A DNA stretch of 48,616 nt. Origin: Campylobacteraceae bacterium (lineage in GTDB: Bacteria; Campylobacterota; Campylobacteria; Campylobacterales; Sulfurovaceae). This document shows positions 10,150 to 48,616 of this stretch, piece after piece (position 1 is the stretch's first letter; every line of letters begins with the position of its first letter). Position numbers and translations under genes: made by a program. Location: the NCBI GenBank assembly GCA_027065385.1, contig JAMOOP010000048.1:1-48616 (forward strand), in the 5' to 3' direction. The notes below the pieces were generated by a model. That model saw nothing but the letters and a program-made list of their open reading frames with translations, made no database searches and was not told where the DNA came from.

Positions 10150-10180
10150 AATAGAGTTTTCTTTAATAGAAAACTCTATT
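10150..10180 (+). terminator. Terminator of argS
   Basis: AATAGAGTTTTC (10150-10161) and GAAAACTCTATT (10169-10180) form a perfect 12-bp stem with a 7-base loop, followed by TT on the plus strand. The right arm runs into the last codons of the convergent alpha-2-macroglobulin gene. It may act on both strands. Confidence 0.7.
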
Positions 10181-13100
10181 TTGCCACCTCAATTTTAGTA
10201 ATTAAAACCTTTCCATTTATCTCTTTAATAGTTAAAAGGTGTTTGCTAACCCCTTTTAGCTCTTTTTTGCTATTTTTTAAAGTATAATCAAAAGTTATCT
10301 TTATAGTAGCCTCTTTCTCTTTTTTATCTAATCGTATAGTTTTAAGTTTAATATTTTGATAATCTCTTTTTGTCCAATCTCTAAAATATTTTACTTTATC
10401 TTTTATAATATCTTTTTTAGTCACATTTTTTTTATGATAGTATTGAGATAAAGGGTATGAAAATAGCTCTATAAAATCTTGTGGATTATTGCTTTGCATC
10501 TCTCTATAATATAGCTTTTTAACTAATACCTTAGCCTTATCTTCTAAACTAATATTATCTGCTTTTTTCTCTTTAATCTTATCTAAAACTATAATTTTTT
10601 CTACTCCCTTAGCATAATCATTTACTCTACTATCATACATAGATTCTATTATAACTGCTGGTATTTTACACTCACCTTTAGTTGTAACTAAAAGAGGAGT
10701 AAATATAATTCCTTTATTCTCTTTAGTTATATATTTTTTACTCTTTTTATTATATATCTGTTTTTTATTTAAATCAATAAAATTTAGTACCCTATCATCT
10801 CTTATCTCTTTATACTCCTGATTAATATTTACATTTTTAAATCTACCATCTGGAGTCTCATTTTGAATTCTACTATTTACTATAGTTAAACAGCTAGGTA
10901 CTCTTTGATTAACTACTACACTTTTAAACTCTCCATAGTTTGCAATAGTTACCTGTGAGTAAATTTTATCTCCCTGTTTTAGACTATTTAAATTGACACT
11001 ACGATTATCTTCATTTATAAATACTCTTTTTATACTTATCTTTTTAGATTTTGATAATCTATTTTTTATCTTTTTAGGTAGATTTTTTACTAATTCAATA
11101 TTATAACTCATAGCATTAGAGTTTGGAGCTAATAGTATATTACTATCTTTAACACTATTTACTATTAAAGATATTGGTTTAGTATATCTTCTACTTTTAC
11201 CATTAATAGTTAAATTAACATCTAACTTACTATTAGTAGGCTTTCCAAGATAGATACTTACAGCTTTTAATGCTATGGCTCTCTCTTGTGTAGAGTATAG
11301 AGTATTAAATGATTTCTCTATAGTTGCTAAATCTTTTACATCTACTTTAAAGTATTTAGTTTTAATAATAAATTGAAGTAACATATCTCTTATATTAGAC
11401 TCAAAATTACCACTATAGTTGGAGTATCTACTTTTTAAATATGATGATAATTTATATCCTACACTAGCATATAACTCTTCTGCCTCTTTGGTTTTACCTT
11501 TTATTTTTAATATAGCAGACATATAATATTTAGATAAAAAGAACTCTTTATAAAAACCTTTTTCTAATAGCATATTAAAACTACTATCACTTAATTCACT
11601 ATTTTCGGCTAAAATATACCCAGCATAAACTCTATGAAACTCACTATAATCTCCTAAATAATCACCATTTTTTAAAACAATAGCTTTTAATGCTTTTATA
11701 GTTTTATCTATTACAAATTGGTCAATATAAACTCCATCTCTTTTTAACTCTAATAGAGTTTGTGAAGCATATAGTGAAGCATAAGGATTAATCTCTCCAT
11801 CTTTTTCCCAATAGCTAAACTCACCATAATAGTTTTGCATATTTCTTAATTTTTTAATCCCTTGTCTAATAAAGTTTTTACTCTCTCCAACTAAAATGGT
11901 ATTTTTTAAGAAAGGTCTTGCATAATACATTGCTAAAATCTTAGAAGTTGTTTGCTCTGCACAACCATAAGGATAACTAACTAGATATTTTAAATCATTT
12001 CCTAAAACACCTATTAAGTTATTAGATAGTGTAATATAAGCTTTAGCTCCTATATACTCTTTAGGAATGGTAAACTTCTCTTTTTTATTGCTAATTCCTT
12101 TAAATGTCTTAGTACTAATAGCATAAGGGCTATAGATAGGAAGCTCTACACTATTTGTAACCACCTCATCTTTACCAAATTTAGCTATTAGTTTTATATT
12201 AGATTTTCCAATCTCTTTAGGATTTAATTTAGCATTAATTATAGTTGAACTATTTGGAGAGAGAGTTAAATTATTATCGTCTAATTTAAACTCTATATTT
12301 TTAGAAGATATAGATGCTAGAGTAATATTTTTTATATCTTTAGTTGTATTAAAGACTCTTATAGGAACTATTATCTTATCCCCTTTTAAAGCGTATAGAG
12401 GATATGATGGTTTTATCATTACATCATCTTTTACTATAATATCTTTTGAAGAGACCCCTATACTATCTTCATTTACAGCTACAGCTATAATAGAGGCTTT
12501 ACCATTAAATTGAGGTATATCTATTCCTATAGTTGTATTATTATCAGTAGGCTCTATAATTCCACTCCAAACCATAAACGGTTTAACTCTTTTACCAAAA
12601 TCTGGTGCTAAATGTTTTCTTTTTCCACCACCTGCAATATCACCTGCACCAAAATCTATTATTTTACCCTCTGTTAGATATGCCATTAATTTATCATATA
12701 GGTCATAATATGATATTTTTTTATCTGCCTCTTTATTAAAAAAGTCAAATATTTCAGGTTCTCCTTGGTTGGTTAATTGAAGTATTCCTCTATCTACAAC
12801 ACTTACTAAAATTTTAGATGGTTTAGAGGTTACTATATTTAGTTTCATTACTCTTTTAGATTTAGTAACTTTTGGGGCTTCTATTTTTACATCTATTTTA
12901 TGAGTTGTATTGTCTGGCTCTATATACTCATATCCTATAGCTCTAAATGGAATTAGTTTAGATGAGGTGTCACTTGCTCTATATACAGTTGCATGTAGAT
13001 ATGCACCTTTTTTCATATCAAAAGTTATAGGAATATCTACTTTAGCTACACCCTTTTCTATATGAACCAATCTATAACCCTCAACTTTATTATCTTCAAT

Positions 13101-15845
13101 AGTTAAAAGCAACTCTCCATTTAAAATAGGTGATTTAATTGTAGCAATAATTGTATCTCCTTTTTTATAGAGTTTATCTTCAAAATCAATCTCTACCGAT
13201 TTTAAATCATCTTTTGGAGAGATATTACTATAATCTTGCCACCAAACCTCAAAATCACTACTTGCACTATGTCCACCTAAATGGTCATAAACCTCTATAA
13301 TATAATCCCCATTTTGACCAACTTTTCTTGCAAAAGGCTCATTTGGTTTAATGGTAAAACTATCAACCACCCTACTCTCTTTTTCCCAATTACTATTACC
13401 ATTTGTATAACTATAGTGCCAATCTATCTTTTTAATAACGGCATATAGCTTTCTATTAATCTCCTCACCACTAAGAGGATTAATTAAAATAGCTCTACCT
13501 TTTAACTCTTGCCCTTTCTCTAAATGAGTAGTATCAACTTTTAATCCAACCATATTTTTATATGGAAAAAGTTTTAATTTTCTATATTTTGATACAGGTT
13601 GATTATCGTCCATAATAGTAACTCCCAAAGTTACCTCTAAAATAGATGGAACACGATTTTTAATAATAGTAGGAAGTGCTATATTAATCTTACCATTACT
13701 ATCCAATCTAATATTTTCATTATAGGCTAAATACCCCATAGTACCACCCCTATTAGGGTTAGAAAAAGAGTATCCTTTATATTTATAAAGTGAAAACTCT
13801 ATTGGTCTGCTAGATAAACTAATTTTTCCATTAAGATATGATGCAGGAGTACCAAATAGATAACTAGAGCTAATATTAGCTTCAATAAGTTCACCACTTA
13901 AATAGTTATCTCTAGCCATTTTTATATGGTTCTCAATTTTAGGAGGCATAAAAGCTTCTACTTTAAGAGTGGTAGAACCAATAATAGTTTTATCAATATA
14001 GGCTACAATCTCATAAGTTCCTGTTTTATCCTCATTATCAAGCTGATAGTTAAAATCAATTAATCCATAATTATCTGTATGATATATCTTCTCTTGAACT
14101 ATTTTTCCATATCTCTGTTTAAATACTATTTTAATAGGTAGTTTCTTAGCAGATATAAATGCTCTATCTTTAATTGTAATTAGTGCGTTTATTTTAGAGG
14201 CAGGACGGACTATATTACTTTGTAAATAAATATTAGCTCTAAATCTCTCTTCTTTATTTAAAATTTCATCGGGAGATGGAGAAGATATAGTTCTATCTAA
14301 GACTAAAAAGTTTCTATCTGATTTTGTCTCAACAACTATACCTATAGGTTTTTTAGATAGAAGTTCACTATCTTCAATTACAACCATACCATACTTATCA
14401 CTCTTTGCTGAACCTATAAGTTGATTATTCTCTCCATAAAGATAGACCATTGCAGTAACTAAAGGTTTTGCACTATCTAATTTCATAGTATGAATAAAAG
14501 CTTGTGTTTTAGAGATATTTGCAGATATTCCAATATTTGATAAAAATAGAACCCTGCTACTCTTTTTCTCTTCCTCTCCATCACTATATCTTAAAGTAAT
14601 CTTATATACACCAAAAGGTAAATCTTCATCTAAAGATGAGAATTTAAATTTTTGTTTTACTAACTTGTTTTTTATATTATTTAGTTTTATCTCTTTAGTA
14701 AATACCTCTTCTAAATATCTATCAACTACACTCTTATTGGCATTTTCAAAATTTACAAAATATCTCATATTATCGTCTAATACTCTTTGTACTATAAGAG
14801 TTGCACTATTTAGATTAATGGTAGAAAAACCTAGCTCTCCATTATTTGATACATAAGGTTTTTTATCTTCAAATATAATAGTTTTTGCTAAATCTCCACT
14901 CTTTAAAGTATAGTGTTTATCCTCTTTTAGCTCTCTATATGTTCTTAGACCCTTTTTTATGGTTATTTTATATGTATGATTTGGTTTAAATTCAGGGCTG
15001 ATAATATCAGTATAATAGTAAGCTCCACTTGATAGTTTTAATCTCTTTCTTTGTCTATATCCTACATAGTTATCTCTACTAATACGAAAATTATCAATTC
15101 CATCAATCTCTATAAAATCTTTTATACTATTATCTAGTGTATCATCAAAAAATAGTCTAATAGCAAACTCTCCACTATCTAAAGAGACCATTCTAGGCTT
15201 ATCATTAATATCCATTGACTCTTTTTTATTATCAAGTGTAACAGTTAATGACTTTTTAGCATTAAATATATTACTAAACTCTTCTCCTAAACTCTTACCA
15301 TTAATATTTTTTAGCTCTTTATCTATAGTTAACTCTATAGGATTATTATATACAGGTTCATTAATCTTTAAAAGCAAAGTATTACTACTTTGTTGGATTA
15401 TACTATAGGTTAAATCTGTAGTTGAAAGTTTATCTATTTTGGTTAGTTTTATATATTTTTTTACATCTTTAGGACTAATATTATCATTAAATTCAACTTT
15501 TATAAGTTTATCTCTTTTAAAAAAGTTATAATCTCTTAATCCAAAGGGCTTAGTTCTAAATTTAATGGTATCTTTACCATATTTACATTGATAAAGAGTC
15601 CCACTCTGTAACTGTTTTTTGGGAATAATCTTAACCTTATGAATACCCTCTATTTTATAAACAGCATTAAGTTTAGGATTACACTTTAATAGCTCTTTAT
15701 AAGTGTAGAGTATATCTGTATTAAAAATAGATTTACTACTTTTTATAGTAAATGGTTCATTTAATGATACTATCTTAATAGGTGATGGCGTTGGATTTGC
15801 ATAAATTATCGAAGATATTAAAATAATAAGATATTTCTTGAACAT
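10176..15845 (-). CDS. Alpha-2-macroglobulin-like protein with NTF2-like C-terminus
   Basis: An 1889-residue exported protein of the bacterial alpha-2-macroglobulin family (YfhM-like), thought to trap proteases in the periplasm. The N-terminal signal peptide (about 1-17) lacks a lipobox, unlike E. coli YfhM. Many beta-sandwich macroglobulin domains follow. The thioester motif is PYGCAEQT with Cys1295 and Gln1298, so the covalent trap looks intact; an alpha-helical thioester domain continues to about 1560. After receptor-binding-like segments, about 1765-1889 resembles a SnoaL/NTF2-like domain (YYHKKNVTKKDI, KVKYFRDWTKRDYQNIKL). pbpC, the usual partner, is not adjacent. Monocistronic. Confidence 0.88.
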   Translation of the reverse strand: MFKKYLIILISSIIYANPTPSPIKIVSLNEPFTIKSSKSIFNTDILYTYKELLKCNPKLNAVYKIEGIHKVKIIPKKQLQSGTLYQCKYGKDTIKFRTKPFGLRDYNFFKRDKLIKVEFNDNISPKDVKKYIKLTKIDKLSTTDLTYSIIQQSSNTLLLKINEPVYNNPIELTIDKELKNINGKSLGEEFSNIFNAKKSLTVTLDNKKESMDINDKPRMVSLDSGEFAIRLFFDDTLDNSIKDFIEIDGIDNFRISRDNYVGYRQRKRLKLSSGAYYYTDIISPEFKPNHTYKITIKKGLRTYRELKEDKHYTLKSGDLAKTIIFEDKKPYVSNNGELGFSTINLNSATLIVQRVLDDNMRYFVNFENANKSVVDRYLEEVFTKEIKLNNIKNKLVKQKFKFSSLDEDLPFGVYKITLRYSDGEEEKKSSRVLFLSNIGISANISKTQAFIHTMKLDSAKPLVTAMVYLYGENNQLIGSAKSDKYGMVVIEDSELLSKKPIGIVVETKSDRNFLVLDRTISSPSPDEILNKEERFRANIYLQSNIVRPASKINALITIKDRAFISAKKLPIKIVFKQRYGKIVQEKIYHTDNYGLIDFNYQLDNEDKTGTYEIVAYIDKTIIGSTTLKVEAFMPPKIENHIKMARDNYLSGELIEANISSSYLFGTPASYLNGKISLSSRPIEFSLYKYKGYSFSNPNRGGTMGYLAYNENIRLDSNGKINIALPTIIKNRVPSILEVTLGVTIMDDNQPVSKYRKLKLFPYKNMVGLKVDTTHLEKGQELKGRAILINPLSGEEINRKLYAVIKKIDWHYSYTNGNSNWEKESRVVDSFTIKPNEPFARKVGQNGDYIIEVYDHLGGHSASSDFEVWWQDYSNISPKDDLKSVEIDFEDKLYKKGDTIIATIKSPILNGELLLTIEDNKVEGYRLVHIEKGVAKVDIPITFDMKKGAYLHATVYRASDTSSKLIPFRAIGYEYIEPDNTTHKIDVKIEAPKVTKSKRVMKLNIVTSKPSKILVSVVDRGILQLTNQGEPEIFDFFNKEADKKISYYDLYDKLMAYLTEGKIIDFGAGDIAGGGKRKHLAPDFGKRVKPFMVWSGIIEPTDNNTTIGIDIPQFNGKASIIAVAVNEDSIGVSSKDIIVKDDVMIKPSYPLYALKGDKIIVPIRVFNTTKDIKNITLASISSKNIEFKLDDNNLTLSPNSSTIINAKLNPKEIGKSNIKLIAKFGKDEVVTNSVELPIYSPYAISTKTFKGISNKKEKFTIPKEYIGAKAYITLSNNLIGVLGNDLKYLVSYPYGCAEQTTSKILAMYYARPFLKNTILVGESKNFIRQGIKKLRNMQNYYGEFSYWEKDGEINPYASLYASQTLLELKRDGVYIDQFVIDKTIKALKAIVLKNGDYLGDYSEFHRVYAGYILAENSELSDSSFNMLLEKGFYKEFFLSKYYMSAILKIKGKTKEAEELYASVGYKLSSYLKSRYSNYSGNFESNIRDMLLQFIIKTKYFKVDVKDLATIEKSFNTLYSTQERAIALKAVSIYLGKPTNSKLDVNLTINGKSRRYTKPISLIVNSVKDSNILLAPNSNAMSYNIELVKNLPKKIKNRLSKSKKISIKRVFINEDNRSVNLNSLKQGDKIYSQVTIANYGEFKSVVVNQRVPSCLTIVNSRIQNETPDGRFKNVNINQEYKEIRDDRVLNFIDLNKKQIYNKKSKKYITKENKGIIFTPLLVTTKGECKIPAVIIESMYDSRVNDYAKGVEKIIVLDKIKEKKADNISLEDKAKVLVKKLYYREMQSNNPQDFIELFSYPLSQYYHKKNVTKKDIIKDKVKYFRDWTKRDYQNIKLKTIRLDKKEKEATIKITFDYTLKNSKKELKGVSKHLLTIKEINGKVLITKIEVAK

Positions 15846-15948
15846 GATAAAACCTTTTTAGTTTAATTTTACCATAATTTGAGATTAAATGGTAGATAAT
15901 TTGCTTATTAATATAAATAAAATTGATTTTGAGAAAAAGTGTATAGAT

Positions 15949-15978
15949 TGGGCTAATTAAGCACTAATTGGTTAAAAT
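15949..15978 (+). promoter_or_regulatory. Probable glnS promoter
   Basis: TAAAAT at 15973-15978 with TTGGGC at 15949-15954 (18-base spacer), 41 bases upstream of the glnS ATG. A ribosome site AGAGG follows. The rest of the 174-base divergent gap shows nothing else I can support. Confidence 0.4.
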
Positions 15979-16019
15979 ACTCACCTTTAAAAGTCCCACA
16001 ATCAAAGAGGTTTAATAAT

Positions 16020-18269
16020 ATGAATAAGAGCAAAGATTTTTTACGAAGAGTAGTTGAAGAGGATTTAAAATCAGGTAAATACCAAGAGGTGGTTACAAGA
16101 TTTCCACCAGAACCAAATGGATTTCCACACATAGGTCACGCTAAATCTATAGCTATTAATTTTGGAATTGCCAAAGATTATAATGGACACTGTAACCTAA
16201 GAATGGACGATACAAATCCAACTACAGAAGATACAAAATTCGTAGAGGCTCTAAAAGATGCTGTAGAGTGGCTTGGATTTAAATGGGACAAAGATGTATA
16301 TTTTACATCAGATTATTTTCAAAAACTATATGATTATGCTATTAAACTTATTAAAATGGAAAAAGCTTATATTGATAGTTTAAATGAAGATAAGATAAGA
16401 GAGTATAGAGGAACAGTAACAACTGCTGGAAAAAGAAGCCAATATGCAAATAGAACTGTTGAGGAGAATTTAGACCTTTTTAAAAGAATGAAAAATGGAG
16501 AATTTAAAGAGGGAGAGCATATATTAAGAGCCAAAATTGATATGAGTTCACCAAATATGAAAATGCGTGACCCGCTTCTATATCGCATAAGACATGCACA
16601 CCACTTTAGAGCAGGAGATAATTGGGCAATATATCCAATGTATGATTTTGCTCACCCACTATCTGATTATATAGAAGGAATTACGCACTCAATTTGTACT
16701 TTAGAGTTTGAAAATAATCGTGATATATATAATTGGTTATTAGATACACTAGAGTTAGAGCCTCCAAGACCATATCAATATGAGTTTGCACGACTAAATA
16801 TTAGCTATACAGTTATGAGTAAAAGAAAACTTTTAGAGTTAGTTGAAAGTGGAGATATTAATGGCTGGGATGACCCTAGAATGCCAACTATTGCAGGACT
16901 TAGAAGAAGAGGTTATACGCCTGAGTCTATTTTAAATTTTTGCGACCAAATAGGTGTTGCAAAGGCTAACTCTATAGTAGATGTAGCTCAACTTGAATAC
17001 TCTATTAGAGATGACTTAAATACAAAAGTTCCAAGAGTTATGTCTGTGTTAGAGCCTTTAAAAGTTACTATTGAAAATTATGAGGGAGAGGAGAGTATAA
17101 CTGCTTCATACTATCCACATGATGTACCAAAAGAGGGTTCAAGAGAGTTACCTTTTAGTAAAGAGATTTATATTAATAGAGATGATTTTAGCGAAAATCC
17201 TCCTAAAGGATACTATAGATTAACTCCAAACCAACCTGTAAGACTTCGATATGCCTATATTATTAGTTGCAAAGAGATAATAAAAGATAATAATGGAGAG
17301 ATAATTGAGATAATAGCAGAGTATTATCCAAACTCTAAAAGTGGAGAAGATAAGAGTGATATAAAAGTAAAAAGTGCCATTCAATGGGTAGAAGCAAAGA
17401 GTGCTAAAGAGATTGAAGTAAGAGTTTATGATAGACTATTTAAAAATGAAAATCCACAAGGAGTAGAAGATTTAAACCCTAACTCTCTAAAAATTATTAA
17501 AAATGCTTTAATTGAACCTGCCGTAATTGAGCAAAAACCTGATACAAGATTTCAATTTGAAAGAGAGGGATACTTTTATGCCGACCCAATAGATTACACA
17601 GATAAAAAACCTACTTTTAATAAAATAGTATCTTTAAAAGACTCATGGGCAAAAAAGAAAAAAAGGAGTCAGAACAAACCTCAACCACAACCTAAAAAAA
17701 TTCAAATTGATGGTGAAGTAGTACCAATGAGCAGAAAGGAAGAAGAACTATTTAATAAATATACAAAAGAACTTAAATTAAATAGTGAAGTAGCCAATAC
17801 TCTAGCAAGAGATAAAAGACTATCTTTCTTTTATAAAGAAGCACTAAAAGAATTTAATAGCCCTATAACTATAGCCAATATAGTAACAAATGAGGTAACA
17901 AGAGAGTTAAAACAAAAAAATATTAATGAATTAAAATTTACCCCAAAAGATATAGCCAAACTTGTTCAGATGATAGATAATGAAACTATCTCAACTAAAA
18001 TTGCTAAACAAGTTTATGAGGAAATGGCTAAAAATGGAGTAAATCCTATTGAAATAGTTGAAAGTAAAGATTTAAAGCAGATAAGCGACCCTAATATTAT
18101 TTTGCCTATTATTAATGATATTATTTCTAAAAATCCTGAAAATGTAGAAAAATATAAAAATGGAAATAAAAAGCTTTTTGGTTTCTTTGTGGGGCAGGTG
18201 CTTAAGGCTACTAAAGGGAAAGGTAATCCTAAAGTTGTTAATGAGTTGGTGAGTAAAAGGCTAAAATAA
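16020..18269 (+). CDS. glnS: Glutaminyl-tRNA synthetase with C-terminal YqeY-like domain
   Basis: A 749-residue class I synthetase. RFPPEPNGFPHIGHAKS (HIGH at 37-40) and TVMSKRKL (265-269) are specific to GlnRS rather than GluRS. The catalytic core and beta-barrel anticodon domain reach about residue 545. A Lys/Pro/Gln-rich linker follows, then about 180 residues (570-749) resembling the YqeY/GatB tail domain that helps bind tRNA. E. coli GlnRS is about 554 residues, so this is a fusion of the kind described in Deinococcus. Many Campylobacterota instead use a second GluRS plus GatCAB for Gln-tRNA. It converges on infA. Confidence 0.93.
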   Translation: MNKSKDFLRRVVEEDLKSGKYQEVVTRFPPEPNGFPHIGHAKSIAINFGIAKDYNGHCNLRMDDTNPTTEDTKFVEALKDAVEWLGFKWDKDVYFTSDYFQKLYDYAIKLIKMEKAYIDSLNEDKIREYRGTVTTAGKRSQYANRTVEENLDLFKRMKNGEFKEGEHILRAKIDMSSPNMKMRDPLLYRIRHAHHFRAGDNWAIYPMYDFAHPLSDYIEGITHSICTLEFENNRDIYNWLLDTLELEPPRPYQYEFARLNISYTVMSKRKLLELVESGDINGWDDPRMPTIAGLRRRGYTPESILNFCDQIGVAKANSIVDVAQLEYSIRDDLNTKVPRVMSVLEPLKVTIENYEGEESITASYYPHDVPKEGSRELPFSKEIYINRDDFSENPPKGYYRLTPNQPVRLRYAYIISCKEIIKDNNGEIIEIIAEYYPNSKSGEDKSDIKVKSAIQWVEAKSAKEIEVRVYDRLFKNENPQGVEDLNPNSLKIIKNALIEPAVIEQKPDTRFQFEREGYFYADPIDYTDKKPTFNKIVSLKDSWAKKKKRSQNKPQPQPKKIQIDGEVVPMSRKEEELFNKYTKELKLNSEVANTLARDKRLSFFYKEALKEFNSPITIANIVTNEVTRELKQKNINELKFTPKDIAKLVQMIDNETISTKIAKQVYEEMAKNGVNPIEIVESKDLKQISDPNIILPIINDIISKNPENVEKYKNGNKKLFGFFVGQVLKATKGKGNPKVVNELVSKRLK

Positions 18270-29050: not shown

Positions 29051-30469
29051 TTAAGAATTTAATCTAATTATAAATATTGTGCTACCTCCCTCTACCTTAA
29101 CACTAAGCTTTCCACTCATTTCTCTTTCTATAATAGTTTTTGCTATATAAAGTCCTATTCCATCACTATTTTTTTTGGTACTAAAGTATGGTTCAAAGAT
29201 TTTATCTATATACTCTTTTTCTATGCCTCCTGCGTTATCCTCTATTGATACTTTAAAGTTCTCTATGGTTATTTTAATTTGTGGTTTTTCTATCTTTCTC
29301 TCTACTAAAACATCTCTTGCATTATTTATAATATTTAAAATAACCTGCTGAAACTCATTACTGTTGGCATAGAAAAAGAAGTTCTCCTTTACATCTAAAC
29401 CAATATCTATCTTTTGAAGAGTGGGAGATACTATCTTTATGGTATCTTCACACGCCTTTGCTATATCAAAACTCTCTCTTTTTTTAGATGGATTATAGAA
29501 GTTTCTAAAATTCTCTATAGTTTTAGACATATATTGTAACTGTTCATTTGCCTCTTTTATAGTTAAAAGTGCATCTTTATCTCCATTACAACCTCTTTTA
29601 ATATGCATAAAAGCAAAAGATAAAAAATTGAGAGGTTGTCTCCATTGATGAGCAATAATTGAAATCATCTCCCCCATAGAGGCTAGTCTTGATTGTTGTA
29701 GTAACATACTCTGTTGAAGTCTTTGCTCTTTTTCTATAAGTTTAAACTTATAAGATATAGCAAAAGATAGTAACATAGATTCAATAGCAAATGCTATATG
29801 TAAAAAAGGAAATGTTTTAACCTCTAATCCTGCAAACTCAAAATACTCAATTAAAGATACCAAAAGAAGACTATACCACCCTACTAAAATAAAATAGAAT
29901 GGTACATCTTTGTTTTTACTTAATCTTTGAGCCTCCGATAAAACAAGTAAAATCCAAATAAAACTAGGTACAAATTTAGTTAAAAGTGCATGAGAAAATA
30001 TTAGAGTAAATAGTAAATCAAAAATAGATAGATATATAACACTATTAATTAATCTATTTAAATTTTTTATTTTATATAGTGATAAAAACTGCTGTATAAA
30101 TAACATAGAAAAAAGTACAACTAAAATTTGTGAAATATCTAAAATAAATAGGTGCTTTTTAAATCCATAAATTTCACTAAAAGGGAATATAAATAGATTT
30201 TCTATCTGTACTAAAAGTGATATAATTGCTATTTGGGCTAGGGCGTAATATAGATATTGAAGATTTCTAATATAAAAAAAGAATGCTAGATTATATACAA
30301 TAGAAGATAAAATAACCCCTAAAGAGAGTATTGCAATAATAAACTCTAAATTATTGTAGGTATATATAGGTGCTGTTGTTGTTAGAAAGTGGTCATTATA
30401 AAAAAATATAACTGCTACACCTAAATAGAGTACAATAAGGGATATTTTTATCTTAAGTATATTATCCAT
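29051..30469 (-). CDS. Membrane sensor histidine kinase (7TM-type sensor)
   Basis: 472 residues from the ATG at 30469, which has AGGA 9 bases upstream; a GTG at 30490 would add 7 residues. About 7 or 8 hydrophobic segments occupy residues 5-240, resembling the 7TM-DISM module without its periplasmic domain. A short coiled linker leads to the H-box IIAHQWRQPLN (phospho-His), the N-box ILNIINNARDVL, the G-box DNAGGIEKEYIDKIFEPYF, and SDGIGLYIAK. The HQWRQPL form is characteristic of Campylobacterota kinases. It follows and overlaps its response regulator by 8 bases. The ligand is unknown. Confidence 0.9.
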   Translation of the reverse strand: MDNILKIKISLIVLYLGVAVIFFYNDHFLTTTAPIYTYNNLEFIIAILSLGVILSSIVYNLAFFFYIRNLQYLYYALAQIAIISLLVQIENLFIFPFSEIYGFKKHLFILDISQILVVLFSMLFIQQFLSLYKIKNLNRLINSVIYLSIFDLLFTLIFSHALLTKFVPSFIWILLVLSEAQRLSKNKDVPFYFILVGWYSLLLVSLIEYFEFAGLEVKTFPFLHIAFAIESMLLSFAISYKFKLIEKEQRLQQSMLLQQSRLASMGEMISIIAHQWRQPLNFLSFAFMHIKRGCNGDKDALLTIKEANEQLQYMSKTIENFRNFYNPSKKRESFDIAKACEDTIKIVSPTLQKIDIGLDVKENFFFYANSNEFQQVILNIINNARDVLVERKIEKPQIKITIENFKVSIEDNAGGIEKEYIDKIFEPYFSTKKNSDGIGLYIAKTIIEREMSGKLSVKVEGGSTIFIIRLNS

Positions 30470-31142
30470 AGAGGTGTATCCTATATCCACATTTTGAGAT
30501 ATTTTCTATTTTCTCTTTTCCTATAAGTTTTCTAACATCTCTAACTAAACTACGAAGTGCGTCACTACTCATAACTTTATCAAACCATACAAAGTTTTCT
30601 ATTTCAGAGTATGATACAATTCGACCTTGATTTTTTATTAGAATATCTAAAAACTTATATTGAGACTCTGTTAAAGTAATAACTTTGTCTCCTTGTAAAA
30701 GAGTATGATTAAAGGTATCAAACCTATACTCTTTTGATATATGTATTATATTTGGATTTTGAGTTTCTATCTGTTTAAAGCATAATTTTATAGCTTCAAA
30801 TAGAGGCTCTTCCTCCATGGGTTTTACCAAATATTTAATAAGATTTAGACTTACAGCTTCTAAAAGATACTCGGTTGAAGTATATGCTGTTGTAATAATA
30901 ATTGGTGTCTTTTTATCATTAGCCCTAATCTCTTTGCACAGAGCTAGTCCGTCCATATTTGGCATCTCTATATCGGTCATTATCATATCTATTTTGTTAC
31001 TTTTATATATCTCTAACGCCTCTACTCCATCACTTGCTTCATATATTTCGGCAAAATATGGACGGAGATAAGATATGGCTATTCGCCGTATAAAATCCTC
31101 ATCTTCGACATACAAAAGTGTATATTTTGATTTCTTTAACAT
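30462..31142 (-). CDS. OmpR-family response regulator
   Basis: 226 residues. Receiver domain about 7-120: acidic pair in LLYVEDEDF, phospho-Asp in MIMTDIEMPNMDG, Thr in IITTAYTS, Lys in LVKPME. The C-terminal winged-helix DNA-binding domain (about 150-226) includes LTESQYKFLDILIKNQGRIVS and RSLVRDVRKLIG. Pairs with the kinase gene that overlaps its end. Its targets are unknown; the divergent lipoprotein at 31267 is a natural candidate, since the two share a 124-base promoter region. Confidence 0.93.
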   Translation of the reverse strand: MLKKSKYTLLYVEDEDFIRRIAISYLRPYFAEIYEASDGVEALEIYKSNKIDMIMTDIEMPNMDGLALCKEIRANDKKTPIIITTAYTSTEYLLEAVSLNLIKYLVKPMEEEPLFEAIKLCFKQIETQNPNIIHISKEYRFDTFNHTLLQGDKVITLTESQYKFLDILIKNQGRIVSYSEIENFVWFDKVMSSDALRSLVRDVRKLIGKEKIENISKCGYRIHLYG

Positions 31143-31266
31143 GCTCTACACTTTTTCTACATTTTTTTATTATAACTTGCTTATACCATAGTAGTATATA
31201 AAATATTTATCTAACCTTATACTTAATTTTATATGCTATTATTAGTAAAACAAAACGAGGTTTTTT

Positions 31267-33090
31267 ATGGTAAAAAATATAATTTTTTTGACACTTATCT
31301 TTATCATAAGTGGGTGTGGTATGATGGGAAGCAGTTCAAGTAAAGATACCTCTTTATCTAGTGGTGGGTCTAACAATGTAGCAACAACTGATTTAAATTC
31401 AACTAATACAGACTCTAATTTAATAGCCAATAACTCCTCCGAAGATATACCAACCAATACTCCTACAAACCAAGAGGAGAGCATACTACCACAAACTATT
31501 AGTATAGATTTTCCAGATATATTAAAACAAGATATATCAAGAGATAAAAATATAACTAATGAGTTAAATGAAACTATAGAAGATAATAAAACTATAGAGA
31601 GTAATAGTACAAATAGTACTATTGCCGAAATTGGTTATGAACAGCTTAAAAAAAATATATCTCATATAGAAGATGTTGTAAAAATTGCTCAGATTAATCT
31701 TATTCTTTTAGAAAAGGTAATGCCACAAGTTTTAGATAAGTGTGATGGAATGATTTCTTGTACTTTTGAACCTAAATATCTATCTATTGTTTTAGATAAT
31801 AAGACTATAGATAAAATAGATGATATTATAGATGATAGTAACTTTACAATAGTAGATAAGAGTAGTAGAGTATCTTTAGGTGAAATAGCATTTACAAAAA
31901 AGAGTGTAGATGAGGGGTATGATTATGAGTTAAAGCTAGATATGCTATCGGATAATATAAGATTAAATAATCTATATAAAGATGCAAATAGAAGTGATAT
32001 TAATCTCAATATAGATAATGAATTAGATATAAATTCTACAGAAATAAATATAACCAATAGCAGTCAATTAGATATAAATGTTACAAATAGTAATTTAATT
32101 GAAATTAATAGCACCATAGATATAAATACAACTGAAATAAATAGCACTAATAGATTAGATTTAAATATTACAGATAATAACTTAAGTGAAAACAATAGTA
32201 CAACAGATATAAATATAAGTAGTGAAAATAATAATACTAATAATATAAACCCAATAGAGAATAATACAACTAAAGAGGTAAATATAGTAGATAATAATAA
32301 TATATCTGATATTAATGTAACAGATAAAAATAGAACTATAAAAGAGTATCAAATATTTAAATGGTCTGATTATAATAGTGATGTTATAACAACTTATGTA
32401 TATGATAATAGTGAAAGTATTATAAATATATCAATATATTATTTAGTTGATGAGTATGGAAAAGCAACCATGCATGTATATAATACAAATAATAAAGATG
32501 GACATAAAGAGAATATGAATTTAACTCTAGCTAGTACAGAAGACGATAATAGTACTCTTGTATTACAAGCAAATAGTATAGAGCAATCGTTTGATGGAAA
32601 TGAGACAAATGTTAGTAGCTTTTCATCTAATGGAGAAATTTCAGATGATAATAGTTTAATACTATTTTCAGGAACTGTATCAAATGATAATGAAGAGAAT
32701 AATATAAGCAATAGTTCAGAGGTTATCTGTAGTGGTAATAGTAGCTGTAATGAAAGTAATAATACAATTAATGAAATTCCTGAAATAAAAACAAATCTTG
32801 AATTTTATGAGCTAAAGATAAAAGATGGAAATTTAACAGATGGCTCTTATGTCCTTTTACCACCATATACAGATATTAATGGTTTAACTCTGATAGATGT
32901 TTTTGGACTAACACTCGGAACTTTTACTGTATCTAATGGAAAAGCACAAGGAGAAATTCATAATGGTAGTTATAATGATATGCTTGATAGATTGACTATA
33001 GTTGAAATAAATGAGTCCGAAAAGTCTAAAACTAAATTTAGACTTATAAGTAGTGAAGATAGACCTAATATTGAATTAATAGAGCCATGA
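31267..33090 (+). CDS. Asn/Asp-rich lipoprotein packed with N-glycosylation sequons
   Basis: A 607-residue lipoprotein; the signal peptide ends in lipobox ISGC with Cys17. I recognise no family. Reading the residues, I count 25 sites fitting the bacterial sequon D/E-x-N-x-S/T (for example DINST, EINIT, DINVT, DLNIT), at Asn44, 95, 101, 107, 113, 192, 256, 261, 271, 281, 287, 292, 300, 310, 316, 322, 333, 350, 355, 428, 445, 479, 498, 522 and 582. Thirteen lie between 254 and 357 in a low-complexity region of imperfect D/E-I-N-x-T repeats. Between them are ordered-looking segments at about 122-225 and 358-420 and a C-terminal part from about 505. Surface or periplasmic; glycosylation is inferred, not shown. 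Confidence 0.8.
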   Translation: MVKNIIFLTLIFIISGCGMMGSSSSKDTSLSSGGSNNVATTDLNSTNTDSNLIANNSSEDIPTNTPTNQEESILPQTISIDFPDILKQDISRDKNITNELNETIEDNKTIESNSTNSTIAEIGYEQLKKNISHIEDVVKIAQINLILLEKVMPQVLDKCDGMISCTFEPKYLSIVLDNKTIDKIDDIIDDSNFTIVDKSSRVSLGEIAFTKKSVDEGYDYELKLDMLSDNIRLNNLYKDANRSDINLNIDNELDINSTEINITNSSQLDINVTNSNLIEINSTIDINTTEINSTNRLDLNITDNNLSENNSTTDINISSENNNTNNINPIENNTTKEVNIVDNNNISDINVTDKNRTIKEYQIFKWSDYNSDVITTYVYDNSESIINISIYYLVDEYGKATMHVYNTNNKDGHKENMNLTLASTEDDNSTLVLQANSIEQSFDGNETNVSSFSSNGEISDDNSLILFSGTVSNDNEENNISNSSEVICSGNSSCNESNNTINEIPEIKTNLEFYELKIKDGNLTDGSYVLLPPYTDINGLTLIDVFGLTLGTFTVSNGKAQGEIHNGSYNDMLDRLTIVEINESEKSKTKFRLISSEDRPNIELIEP

Positions 33091-33093
33091 ACT

Positions 33094-33750
33094 CTACTTA
33101 GTAAGGTTTAAATCCCTAACCTTACTACGAACGGCTCTCATAAACTTCTCACCAGGGTCTTTTTTTTCAGTTCTATATCCACTATCTAACTCTAACCACT
33201 CCTCACTTCCCTCTAACTCTCTATACTCATAGTGACCTATTAATTTAGTAATAGTTGGATACTTCTCTTTTAAATAACGAACCAATTTTATATTAGATTT
33301 TAGTTGAGCTTTTGTTAAATCCTCTTTTTTATTACCTTTTCCTCCCACATTTTCCACTCCAATAGAGCTATAATTCAGACCTATTACATGTCGTGCCATA
33401 TAGTTTTCTGGCATAAGTCTATATATAGTACCATCTCTAGCAATTAAAAAGTGAGCCGATACATTTAAAGCACTAGCTTTTGCTATATCTTTTCTATCTG
33501 AAAATAGTCTTTGAGGTTTTAATCTATTAAAAGATTTTTTAAAACTCATATCAGCAGTCCAGTGAAGAACTATAATTTTAGGAACTATCTCTATATTATC
33601 AACCTCAAAGCCATAATGCTTTTTTATATACTCTTTTGTTAAATCAATTCTCTCTTGTCCAAAATCTATAGGTTTATCTATTATTTTAATAGAATTATCT
33701 GCCAAAGAAAATATAGCTGTACTCATTAATAGTAGTATTGTTTTTTTCAT
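33094..33750 (-). CDS. Exported N-acetylmuramoyl-L-alanine amidase (Amidase_2)
   Basis: 218 residues with a cleavable signal peptide (about 1-17, ending Ser-Leu-Ala). Zinc ligands of the AmpD/AmiD fold are visible: His in VLHWTADMSF, His in AHFLIARDGTIYRLMP, and the later GHYEYRE. IGVENVGG is the usual strand. It would cleave the amide between MurNAc and the stem peptide in the periplasm. No lipobox, unlike AmiD. Its end overlaps the hairpin shared with the convergent lipoprotein gene. Confidence 0.88.
   Translation of the reverse strand: MKKTILLLMSTAIFSLADNSIKIIDKPIDFGQERIDLTKEYIKKHYGFEVDNIEIVPKIIVLHWTADMSFKKSFNRLKPQRLFSDRKDIAKASALNVSAHFLIARDGTIYRLMPENYMARHVIGLNYSSIGVENVGGKGNKKEDLTKAQLKSNIKLVRYLKEKYPTITKLIGHYEYRELEGSEEWLELDSGYRTEKKDPGEKFMRAVRSKVRDLNLTK
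33099..33127. terminator. Shared hairpin at the convergent lipoprotein/amidase ends
   Basis: TAGTAAGGTT (33099-33108) and AACCTTACTA (33118-33127) form a perfect 10-bp stem with a 9-base loop, inside the last codons of the amidase gene and 9 bases after the lipoprotein stop. No U-tract on either side. Confidence 0.5.
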
Positions 33751-47339: not shown

Positions 47340-47440
47340 CTCTCTATCTCCAAGCATACCTCGTCTATAATCTCTGATTTAGGCGAGGAGGAATTGGTAG
47401 TGCTGTTACTTCTATTTGATTGTCGATATTGCGTATGCAT
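47336..47440 (-). CDS. Possible 34-residue ORF between iscB and the PilJ-domain gene
   Basis: Starts MHTQYRQSNRSNS at 47440 with a near-perfect AAGGAG 6 bases upstream, overlaps the last 29 bases of iscB in another frame, and ends in an ATGA overlap with the PilJ-domain start. This suggests coupling. Against it, the ORF contains a hairpin that may be a transposon end, and the product is low-complexity Ser/Asn/Gln with no recognised family. Confidence 0.35.
   Translation of the reverse strand: MHTQYRQSNRSNSTTNSSSPKSEIIDEVCLEIER
47359..47388. repeat. Imperfect palindrome just after iscB; possible element end
   Basis: CCTCGTCTA (47359-47367) pairs with TAGGCGAGG (47380-47388), 9 bp with one wobble or mismatch and a 12-base loop. 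It lies 24 bases beyond the iscB stop. IS200/IS605-related elements carry subterminal palindromes near their ends, so this could mark the right end of an iscB element; a coding hairpin is the alternative. Confidence 0.4.
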
Positions 47441-48616
47441 ATCCGTCTCCTTTTTGTATTGTTCTACAGTATTTATAATTAATACCTTGAATAGTTGTTT
47501 TTGTGGTAGTAATGTTAAAATTCCCACTAGCTCTTACAGCCACTTTTCCAAGGTAAGCTCCCATCTTTTTCCCTTTGGTAACTACTGCTTTCACAATGTC
47601 ACCTGTCTGAAAACCTTTTACTATTTTAGAACCTTTAGCTTTAGTTCTTGGAAACCCAAATCTATCCATTCGACACATCTGTCGGCTTCCTCGTCCTTGT
47701 GCTTTAATCTCTAAAACTTTATCTGTTACTATTTCGTATTTATATTTTTCTCCAATACACATAGCATCATAGTAGTGTTGTTTTGGTAAACCAAGCTCTT
47801 TTCTATTTGCGTAAGTTTCCCACCCCTCGCCTACTATTACATCAAAGTTTCTACTTAACTCTTTTATGGTATAAGTTCTAGCACTTTGAATAATTGATGC
47901 GTGTTTTGGTGTTTTTTTAGGCTTTATATGTGACAAATCCTTACCTATCTTCTTACCAAATGCTTCTAAGGTTAAATTTCCCTTAGCTATATTACATTTT
48001 CTGCATGAGAGAGTTAAGTTTTCAATAGAGTTAGTTCCACCTTTAGATTTTGGAACAATATGCTCTATCTCCTCTCCTTTTTTACCACAATAAACGCATT
48101 TATAATTATATTTTTGGAAGATAAAATCTCTTAACTTTGTATCTTTTAAATCACCATTTTGATACTCCATTCCATATAATTTTTCTCCATTTGTCATAGA
48201 ACTAGTATCAAAAGAAACTCTCTCAACCACAACAGACTCTATTGGTATCAGTTTTGCATATTTTTTTGCAAAATTTATTACATTATCTGCTCTTGATTTA
48301 ACACTTGGAGGCAACCACCCTTTAGGTCTAGTTCTATTATCAAATCTCGGCTCTCTATATCTAGTTTTTCTATCTCTTCTACTTCTTCTTACTGCTCTCC
48401 TTGAGTCCATTGCTTTTTTAATTACTGCTCCTCGATGCACTATCTCTGCAAAGAAAAAGCATTTAACTGCATCTACTATAGCTACTCCTGTAACTGATGC
48501 ACCTACATCAAACTTTATTTCAAAACTTTTTTTACACTCTTTATTCTCTTTTAATCTTATTGTGAAAGGATAAACTTTGTGAATAATAGCTTTTTCTTTT
48601 TTTAGTAAAATTCTAG
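47412..48616 (-). CDS. iscB: IscB RNA-guided nuclease (N-terminus cut by window end)
   Basis: 400 residues visible; the frame stays open to the window edge, so the GTG at 48440 is not the start. Order seen: end of the PLMP-type domain and LLKKEKAIIHKVYPFTIRL; RuvC-I with FDVGASVTG (Asp at visible residue 36); Arg-rich bridge helix RRAVRRSRRDRKTRYRE; RuvC-II IESVVVE (Glu about 131); HNH with CVYC, EHIVPKSKGG and CRKC (about 173-207); RuvC-III QHYYDAM (Asp about 283); then the RNA/TAM-side C-terminal part GRGSRQMCRMDRFGFPR and GFQTGDIV. All catalytic residues look intact. IscB is the OMEGA nuclease ancestral to Cas9, carried by IS200/IS605-type elements. Its guide RNA is normally encoded upstream, outside this window. 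No TnpA seen. Confidence 0.93.
   Translation of the reverse strand, partial: RILLKKEKAIIHKVYPFTIRLKENKECKKSFEIKFDVGASVTGVAIVDAVKCFFFAEIVHRGAVIKKAMDSRRAVRRSRRDRKTRYREPRFDNRTRPKGWLPPSVKSRADNVINFAKKYAKLIPIESVVVERVSFDTSSMTNGEKLYGMEYQNGDLKDTKLRDFIFQKYNYKCVYCGKKGEEIEHIVPKSKGGTNSIENLTLSCRKCNIAKGNLTLEAFGKKIGKDLSHIKPKKTPKHASIIQSARTYTIKELSRNFDVIVGEGWETYANRKELGLPKQHYYDAMCIGEKYKYEIVTDKVLEIKAQGRGSRQMCRMDRFGFPRTKAKGSKIVKGFQTGDIVKAVVTKGKKMGAYLGKVAVRASGNFNITTTKTTIQGINYKYCRTIQKGDGYAYAISTIK

Follow-up and report, generated by a model that had tools for sequence, protein, structure and literature searches.

A lipoprotein dense in PglB-type N-glycosylation sequons as a candidate many-site glycoprotein in a Sulfurovum-like bacterium

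The window, by which we mean the whole 48,616-bp stretch of DNA analysed here, encodes a lipoprotein with 28 sequons of the form D/E-x-N-x-S/T in 607 residues. We consider it quite likely that PglB, the oligosaccharyltransferase of the same cell, naturally modifies this protein at many sites, which would leave it with glycan-coated linkers around a beta-rich domain. That it is probably heavily N-glycosylated is well supported as an expectation from its sequence. The gene and its parts, in window coordinates, are as follows.

31267..33090 (+): sequon-rich lipoprotein gene, 607 aa, 28 D/E-x-N-x-S/T sequons (open reading frame and motif count)
31267..31317 (+): signal peptide with lipobox IISGC, presumed lipidated Cys at residue 17 (read from the sequence)
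31318..31479 (+): predicted disordered linker behind the lipid anchor, residues 18-71, 1 sequon (AlphaFold model)
31534..31626 (+): predicted disordered linker, residues 90-120, 4 sequons at 6-residue spacing (AlphaFold model)
31606..31950 (+): folded part A, residues 114-228, long helix and strands (AlphaFold model)
31951..32334 (+): predicted disordered insert, residues 229-356, 15 of the 28 sequons (AlphaFold model)
32024..32215 (+): degenerate tandem DNA repeat, 87 bp x 2.1, within the sequon array (repeat scan)
32335..33087 (+): folded part B, residues 357-607, beta-rich, no significant PDB fold match (AlphaFold model)

The signal peptide and lipobox indicate that the lipoprotein is probably exported past the inner membrane, and G16-C17-G18 is invariant in all eight aligned sequences. 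The preliminary description of this DNA had proposed a sequon-dense lipoprotein and counted 25 sequons; the enrichment proved stronger than claimed, while the number itself did not hold, our recount giving 28 (still 28 when proline is allowed in x, since none of them has proline there). Shuffling the protein globally or within blocks of 60, 30 or 15 residues left a mean of 2.9–3.5 acidic sequons, and 28 was reached in 0 of 5000 shuffles; dipeptide-preserving shuffles had a mean of 3.3, with 28 reached in 0 of 2000. The observed count is thus far above composition-matched expectation (28 versus about 3), and chance or composition as its source was rated low after these shuffles. Motifs lacking the acidic residue at -2 were at chance (15 N-x-S/T observed, 14.9–16.6 expected), as was the reversed motif (3 observed, 3.2 expected), so the excess is confined to the acidic sequon.

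Sequon Asn at residues 233-360 account for 15 of the 28. The regular period of this array, along with its repeated core, had been taken as a sign of selection, but the argument from the period is weak: of 27 gaps between consecutive sequons in the protein, 11 measure 5 or 6 residues, and the 87-bp DNA repeat has 78% matches. The case for selection is stronger from the specificity of the flanking positions, acidic at -2 and Thr at +2. Searches of Pfam, NCBIfam and PDB sequences placed the lipoprotein in no family; two single-member Pfam matches (E 0.015 and 0.043) and one PDB match (E 0.27) were taken as chance.

A preference for Thr at +2 is attributed to PglB-type enzymes. The acidic sequons of the window lipoprotein have a Thr:Ser ratio of 22:6 at this position (binomial p 0.00016), though Ser is the commoner residue in the protein, and the ratio in its non-acidic N-x-S/T is 4:11. 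In the seven orthologues the preference is weak (53:45 in acidic sequons, p 0.0098) and the same as in their non-acidic motifs (17:17). Other exported proteins, pooled over three PglB-positive genomes, have 131:68 in acidic versus 181:240 in non-acidic motifs (p 1.3e-7), and acidic sequons of cytosolic-like proteins have 61:63. When Asp/Glu was counted from -12 to +12 relative to each N-x-S/T, the acidic fraction in the window lipoprotein was 0.65 at -2, 0.05–0.30 elsewhere and 0 at the two fixed positions; the corresponding values in the seven orthologues were 0.74 at -2 and 0.07–0.32 elsewhere. The acidic peak at -2 and the Thr preference at +2 have the signature of acceptor recognition by PglB and not that of composition, and an acidic -2 residue is the published acceptor rule of the C. 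jejuni enzyme (PMC4894442).

In an AlphaFold model computed with eight sequences (mean pLDDT 58.6, pTM 0.61), pLDDT falls below 50 at residues 14-71, 90-120 and 229-356. Sequon Asn lie in these segments in 23 of 28 cases, in other loops in four and in a strand in one; on the model, 27 of the 28 would therefore be exposed and flexible. Sequon density is 9.1 per 100 residues in the pLDDT<50 segments versus 1.4 outside, but non-sequon Asn are also frequent there, and a preference of sequon Asn over other Asn for predicted disorder is only suggestive (p 0.085). A shorter orthologue (L164) models better (pLDDT 74.5, pTM 0.76), with a long helix followed by many strands. Foldseek searches with the two models against the PDB returned nothing at E <= 0.001.

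The preliminary description recommended a search for pglB, and the window genome (2.66 Mb in 175 contigs, 96.4% complete, 5.8% contaminated) has two proteins above the STT3 (PF02516) cut-off, G000:C21 and G000:C145. Residues 7-697 of the first, a 698-aa protein, align with C. lari PglB (5ogl) at 568 bits, with the WWDYG motif and the Arg aligned to ClPglB R331 both kept; its score against NCBIfam NF050801, 659 bits, is below the 1300 cut-off. Keeping R331 is by itself not enough to fix the -2 rule, since some relaxed enzymes retain it (PMC4894442). This full-length copy belongs to a cluster of genes with PglF-, PglE-, PglD-, PglC- and PglA-like Pfam domains (names given by analogy of domains), which also holds a further glycosyltransferase and an epimerase-like gene. 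The second copy lies as follows.

L002:273-2291 (+), own-genome contig C145: second, divergent PglB, 672 aa, above the PF02516 cut-off

It has TWDYG in place of WWDYG, keeps the Arg and scores 271 against the 1300 bits of NF050801. The gene stands apart from the pgl-type cluster and adjoins genes for a small lipoprotein and a DUF285 protein. H. pullorum likewise has two enzymes, the PglB1/PglB2 pair. By homology, PglB and a lipid-linked glycan pathway appear to be present in the window genome, though the assembly is a draft and its 5.8% contamination means that a foreign contig may have contributed the pgl cluster or the second sequon-rich lipoprotein described below.

Matches to the lipoprotein at E <= 0.001 occur in 12 of the 34 genomes of the genus, and close orthologues in eight: G000 (the window genome), G001, G004, G006, G008, G011, G020 and G028. 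In our scan of a named collection, the seven orthologues outside the window belong to two Sulfurovum and five Campylobacteraceae, Campylobacterota or Epsilonproteobacteria MAGs, and we therefore call the organism Sulfurovum-like. Across the family, lipoprotein profile matches were found in 23 of 175 genomes, the strong ones all within the window's genus. PglB is present in all eight close-orthologue genomes (in G004 only as a C-terminal 236-aa piece). The eight proteins carry 28, 21, 22, 13, 7, 23, 7 and 5 acidic sequons, and all exceed 30-residue-block shuffles (0 of 2000 up to p 0.008); non-acidic N-x-S/T is above shuffles in none. Acidic sequons number 1-5 in each of nine more distant homologues, three of which exceed their own shuffles at p <= 0.001. 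At one further candidate locus (G021:C138), the single ORF of at least 250 aa was by eye not homologous, and the locus was rejected.

Comparison with orthologues gave enrichment in all seven and a divided answer on the conservation of individual sites. Alignable window sequons are retained as sequons in 13/15, 14/15, 7/13, 3/9, 10/13, 3/11 and 2/11 cases (L161 to L167), against 18/43, 18/43, 7/40, 11/38, 6/36, 6/35 and 8/33 for other Asn retained as Asn. Conservation above that of other Asn is clear in four of the seven, and slight or absent in L164, L166 and L167. The alignment has 59 sequon columns, of which 37 are occupied in a single protein and 22 in two or more; the number of sequons stays raised in the orthologues despite turnover of their positions. 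Expansion also differs in place: the insert at residues 229-356 is expanded in the window protein, the seven close orthologues lacking most of it, and in L165 (the same gene as L008) the expanded linker is the counterpart of residues 90-120.

The excess is not restricted to this family. Counts by protein class, like the offset, acidic-fraction and Thr:Ser counts, covered ORFs of at least 120 aa, leaving out 5'-open ORFs and smaller ORFs overlapping larger ones by at least 30%; for the window genome the class counts took in the window plus 20 stretches, and a separate cytosolic-like count used ORFs of at least 150 aa. The exported class rests on a crude hydrophobicity rule, and contrasts between classes are approximate. 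On this basis the O/E ratio of acidic sequons in the window genome is 0.86 in cytosolic-like proteins, 1.55 in polytopic, 1.52 in signal-like and 4.67 in lipoproteins, and that of exported proteins without the three richest is 1.72. Two other PglB-positive genomes gave 2.07 (exported) and 1.10 (cytosolic-like) in G008, and 4.05 and 0.88 in G009; without the three richest proteins the exported values are 1.58 and 1.90. Taken alone, the exported versus cytosolic contrast of acidic fractions in G008 is not significant (p 0.071). One of the rich proteins of the window genome is an unrelated lipoprotein.

L079:11610-13697 (-), own-genome contig C17: lipoprotein whose residues 95-150 comprise eight EVD(T/I)NTT units (sequence)

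It has 17 acidic sequons overall, and its near-perfect array is built from near-identical 21-bp units. More than four acidic sequons within 60 residues occur in just two proteins across the stretches sampled from five genomes, the window protein (9) and this lipoprotein (8). The gene next to the latter (13700-17800, -) encodes a large exported protein that has 11 acidic sequons, a weak Cytochrome_C7 match and, by eye, CxxCH motifs. In G009, a 2890-aa Ig/cadherin-repeat lipoprotein (L152:3572-12241, +) has 45 acidic sequons, and the next exported protein has 18.

PglB was not found in the drafts G016 and G013, each at least 94% complete. Their exported O/E ratios, from the first 20 stretches of each, are 1.77 and 1.79, falling to 1.07 and 1.08 without the three richest proteins. 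For G016, this O/E ratio and the offset and Thr:Ser counts used the first 20 of 40 stretches, and the acidic fractions all 40; over all 40 its exported O/E is 2.55. The acidic fraction of exported motifs is 45/177 in G016 and 13/60 in G013 versus 100/316, 25/107 and 102/264 in the three genomes with PglB (odds ratio when pooled 1.5, p 0.014), while the cytosolic-like fraction is higher where PglB was undetected (99/514 versus 124/1022). G016 also encodes sequon-rich proteins, with 16 acidic sequons in 1514 aa (L174), 12 in 1256 aa (L176) and 11 in 651 aa (L178), at a maximum of 4 per 60 residues; G016 proteins with hydrophobic starts and many sequons were not all classed as exported. For the distant homologue in G013, the part covered was a stretch of 158 aa that follows the first Met within a longer open frame, and all 4 of its N-x-S/T have the acidic residue. 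The PglB-negative control is thus not clean: the two drafts may lack a real pglB, or at least some of the genus-wide excess of acidic sequons has a different cause.

We weighed two readings in which the sequons owe nothing to glycosylation. They could be a neutral by-product of AT-rich, low-complexity linkers rich in D, E, N, S and T together with slippage of short DNA repeats. The genome is indeed AT-rich (GC 0.295 in the sampled part), Asn makes up 14.7% of the lipoprotein, the degenerate 87-bp repeat lies within its array, and the L079 array consists of near-identical units; the repeat protein L178 (position 2 onward, +, its start outside the stretch) combines VDNN(N)GSNGSGT-type repeats with 11 acidic sequons in a genome where PglB was not found. 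However, shuffles preserving composition, blocks or dipeptides all fall short of 28, the reversed and non-acidic motifs stay at chance with the excess peaking at -2 only, and cytosolic-like proteins of the window genome have O/E 0.86-0.99. The nearest orthologues retain sequons that lie beyond the array, different linkers are expanded in different orthologues, and the N-x-S/T of L178 are mostly non-acidic (24 of 35), unlike those of the window lipoprotein; we judge this explanation improbable. It is more improbable still that D-x-N-x-S/T marks metal-binding loops, of EF-hand or cadherin-like calcium type, in exported proteins. Some sequon-rich exported proteins of relatives are Ig/cadherin-repeat proteins, such as L152, and Asp is favoured over Glu at -2 in the sequons of other exported proteins (133:66), where calcium may have a share. 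In the window lipoprotein, by contrast, Glu is nearly as free as Asp at -2 (13 and 15), and 23 of the 28 sequons lie in predicted disorder. EF-hand loops carry a Gly after the motif, which follows 0 of the 28 sequons.

A third reading accepts that the sites are glycosylated and assigns the protein a mainly signalling role, as envelope partner of a two-component system, with glycans that only protect it. As the preliminary description stated, a response regulator gene is divergent from the lipoprotein gene.

30462..31142 (-): response regulator (Response_reg and Trans_reg_C), divergent (domain matches)
29051..30490 (-): histidine kinase with 7TMR-DISM membrane domain (domain matches)
31143..31266 (no strand): intergenic region, 124 bp, from response regulator to lipoprotein (ORF borders)

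A regulator of equal size and N-terminal sequence, and the kinase, lie divergent beside the lipoprotein gene in all seven fetched orthologue loci, with kinase identity of 59-79% in those genomes, and a related kinase occurs on the same contig within about 2 kb of distant homologues in four (G013:C53, G022:C66, G031:C6 and G004:C458). Such co-location may mean merely that the regulator controls the lipoprotein gene, and G019 (86% complete) has the kinase at 80% identity with no lipoprotein detected. A mainly signalling role seems to us rather unlikely, while gene order makes it plausible that the two-component system is a controller or partner of the lipoprotein; promoter-like matches in 31100-33200 were not above shuffles. 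Elsewhere in the window are a bacterial alpha-2-macroglobulin-like protein (10179-15845, -) and, truncated by the window end, a protein with RRXRR and HNH domains that we take to be IscB-like (47415-48616, -).

Under the preferred reading, that of a many-site PglB substrate, the lipoprotein would be exported and then lipidated at Cys17. The oligosaccharide would be built as a lipid-linked glycan by the PglF/E/D/C/A-type enzymes, and PglB would move it onto exposed Asn of D/E-x-N-x-S/T in the flexible linkers, in line with its preference for exposed, flexible and unstructured sequons (PMC8518210). If the sequons are occupied, up to 28 glycans could result, roughly half within the single 128-residue disordered insert, and the coated linkers flanking the beta-rich domain would be extended and hard for proteases to cut. 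The lipoprotein may face outside; the surface scaffold suggested in the preliminary description would have its basis in the lipobox alone. Its glycans may act as spacers or shield it from proteases; in C. jejuni, reduced proteome stability has been linked to the loss of N-glycosylation (PMC6478998). The lipoprotein gene may be controlled by the divergent two-component system.

PglB chemistry and a natural tandem sequon peptide are already known. The closest precedent is the "GlycoTag" of C. jejuni Cj1433c, a natural array of nine KIDLNNT units that receives up to nine N-glycans when exported in E. coli with pgl genes (PMC4879521). The EVDTNTT array of L079 is the nearest look-alike of its 7-residue unit. 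The GlycoTag units are perfect, whereas those of the window lipoprotein are degenerate, and its sequons are also spread over three linkers and surface loops; the former was glycosylated on an engineered exported fusion, while the latter's carrier, as far as its sequence tells, is itself a lipoprotein. PglB-dependent general N-glycoproteins of Campylobacter and H. pullorum resemble the window lipoprotein in being exported and in having D/E-x-N-x-S/T with acidic -2 (PMC6025236, PMC6478998), with six sites in five proteins described for H. pullorum versus 28 candidate sites in one protein here. The PglB of a related organism, Sulfurovum lithotrophicum, is among the characterised oligosaccharyltransferases (PMC6025236, citing Mills et al. 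2016), in a passage that concerns enzymes and not native acceptor proteins. In our searches of open-licence papers we met no natural exported protein family with so many PglB sequons, and no scan of -2 in exported proteins of Sulfurovum-like genomes.

Why bacteria glycosylate proteins has been described as poorly defined (PMC6478998). A lipoprotein family that gains, keeps and relocates sequons offers a system for a direct test of the benefit of glycan number, and its sequon-rich linkers may serve as acceptor tags. Since exported proteins bear the -2 and +2 signature and cytosolic ones do not, it may become possible to read from a genome which acceptors an uncharacterised PglB prefers. More tentatively, it is possible, if somewhat doubtful, that this Sulfurovum-like lineage bears N-glycan "mucin-like" lipoproteins, their disordered linkers filled with sequons by independent expansion in unrelated lipoproteins; PglB would then shape how a large share of the exported proteome evolves, and protein-borne N-glycans would form a coat around the cell.
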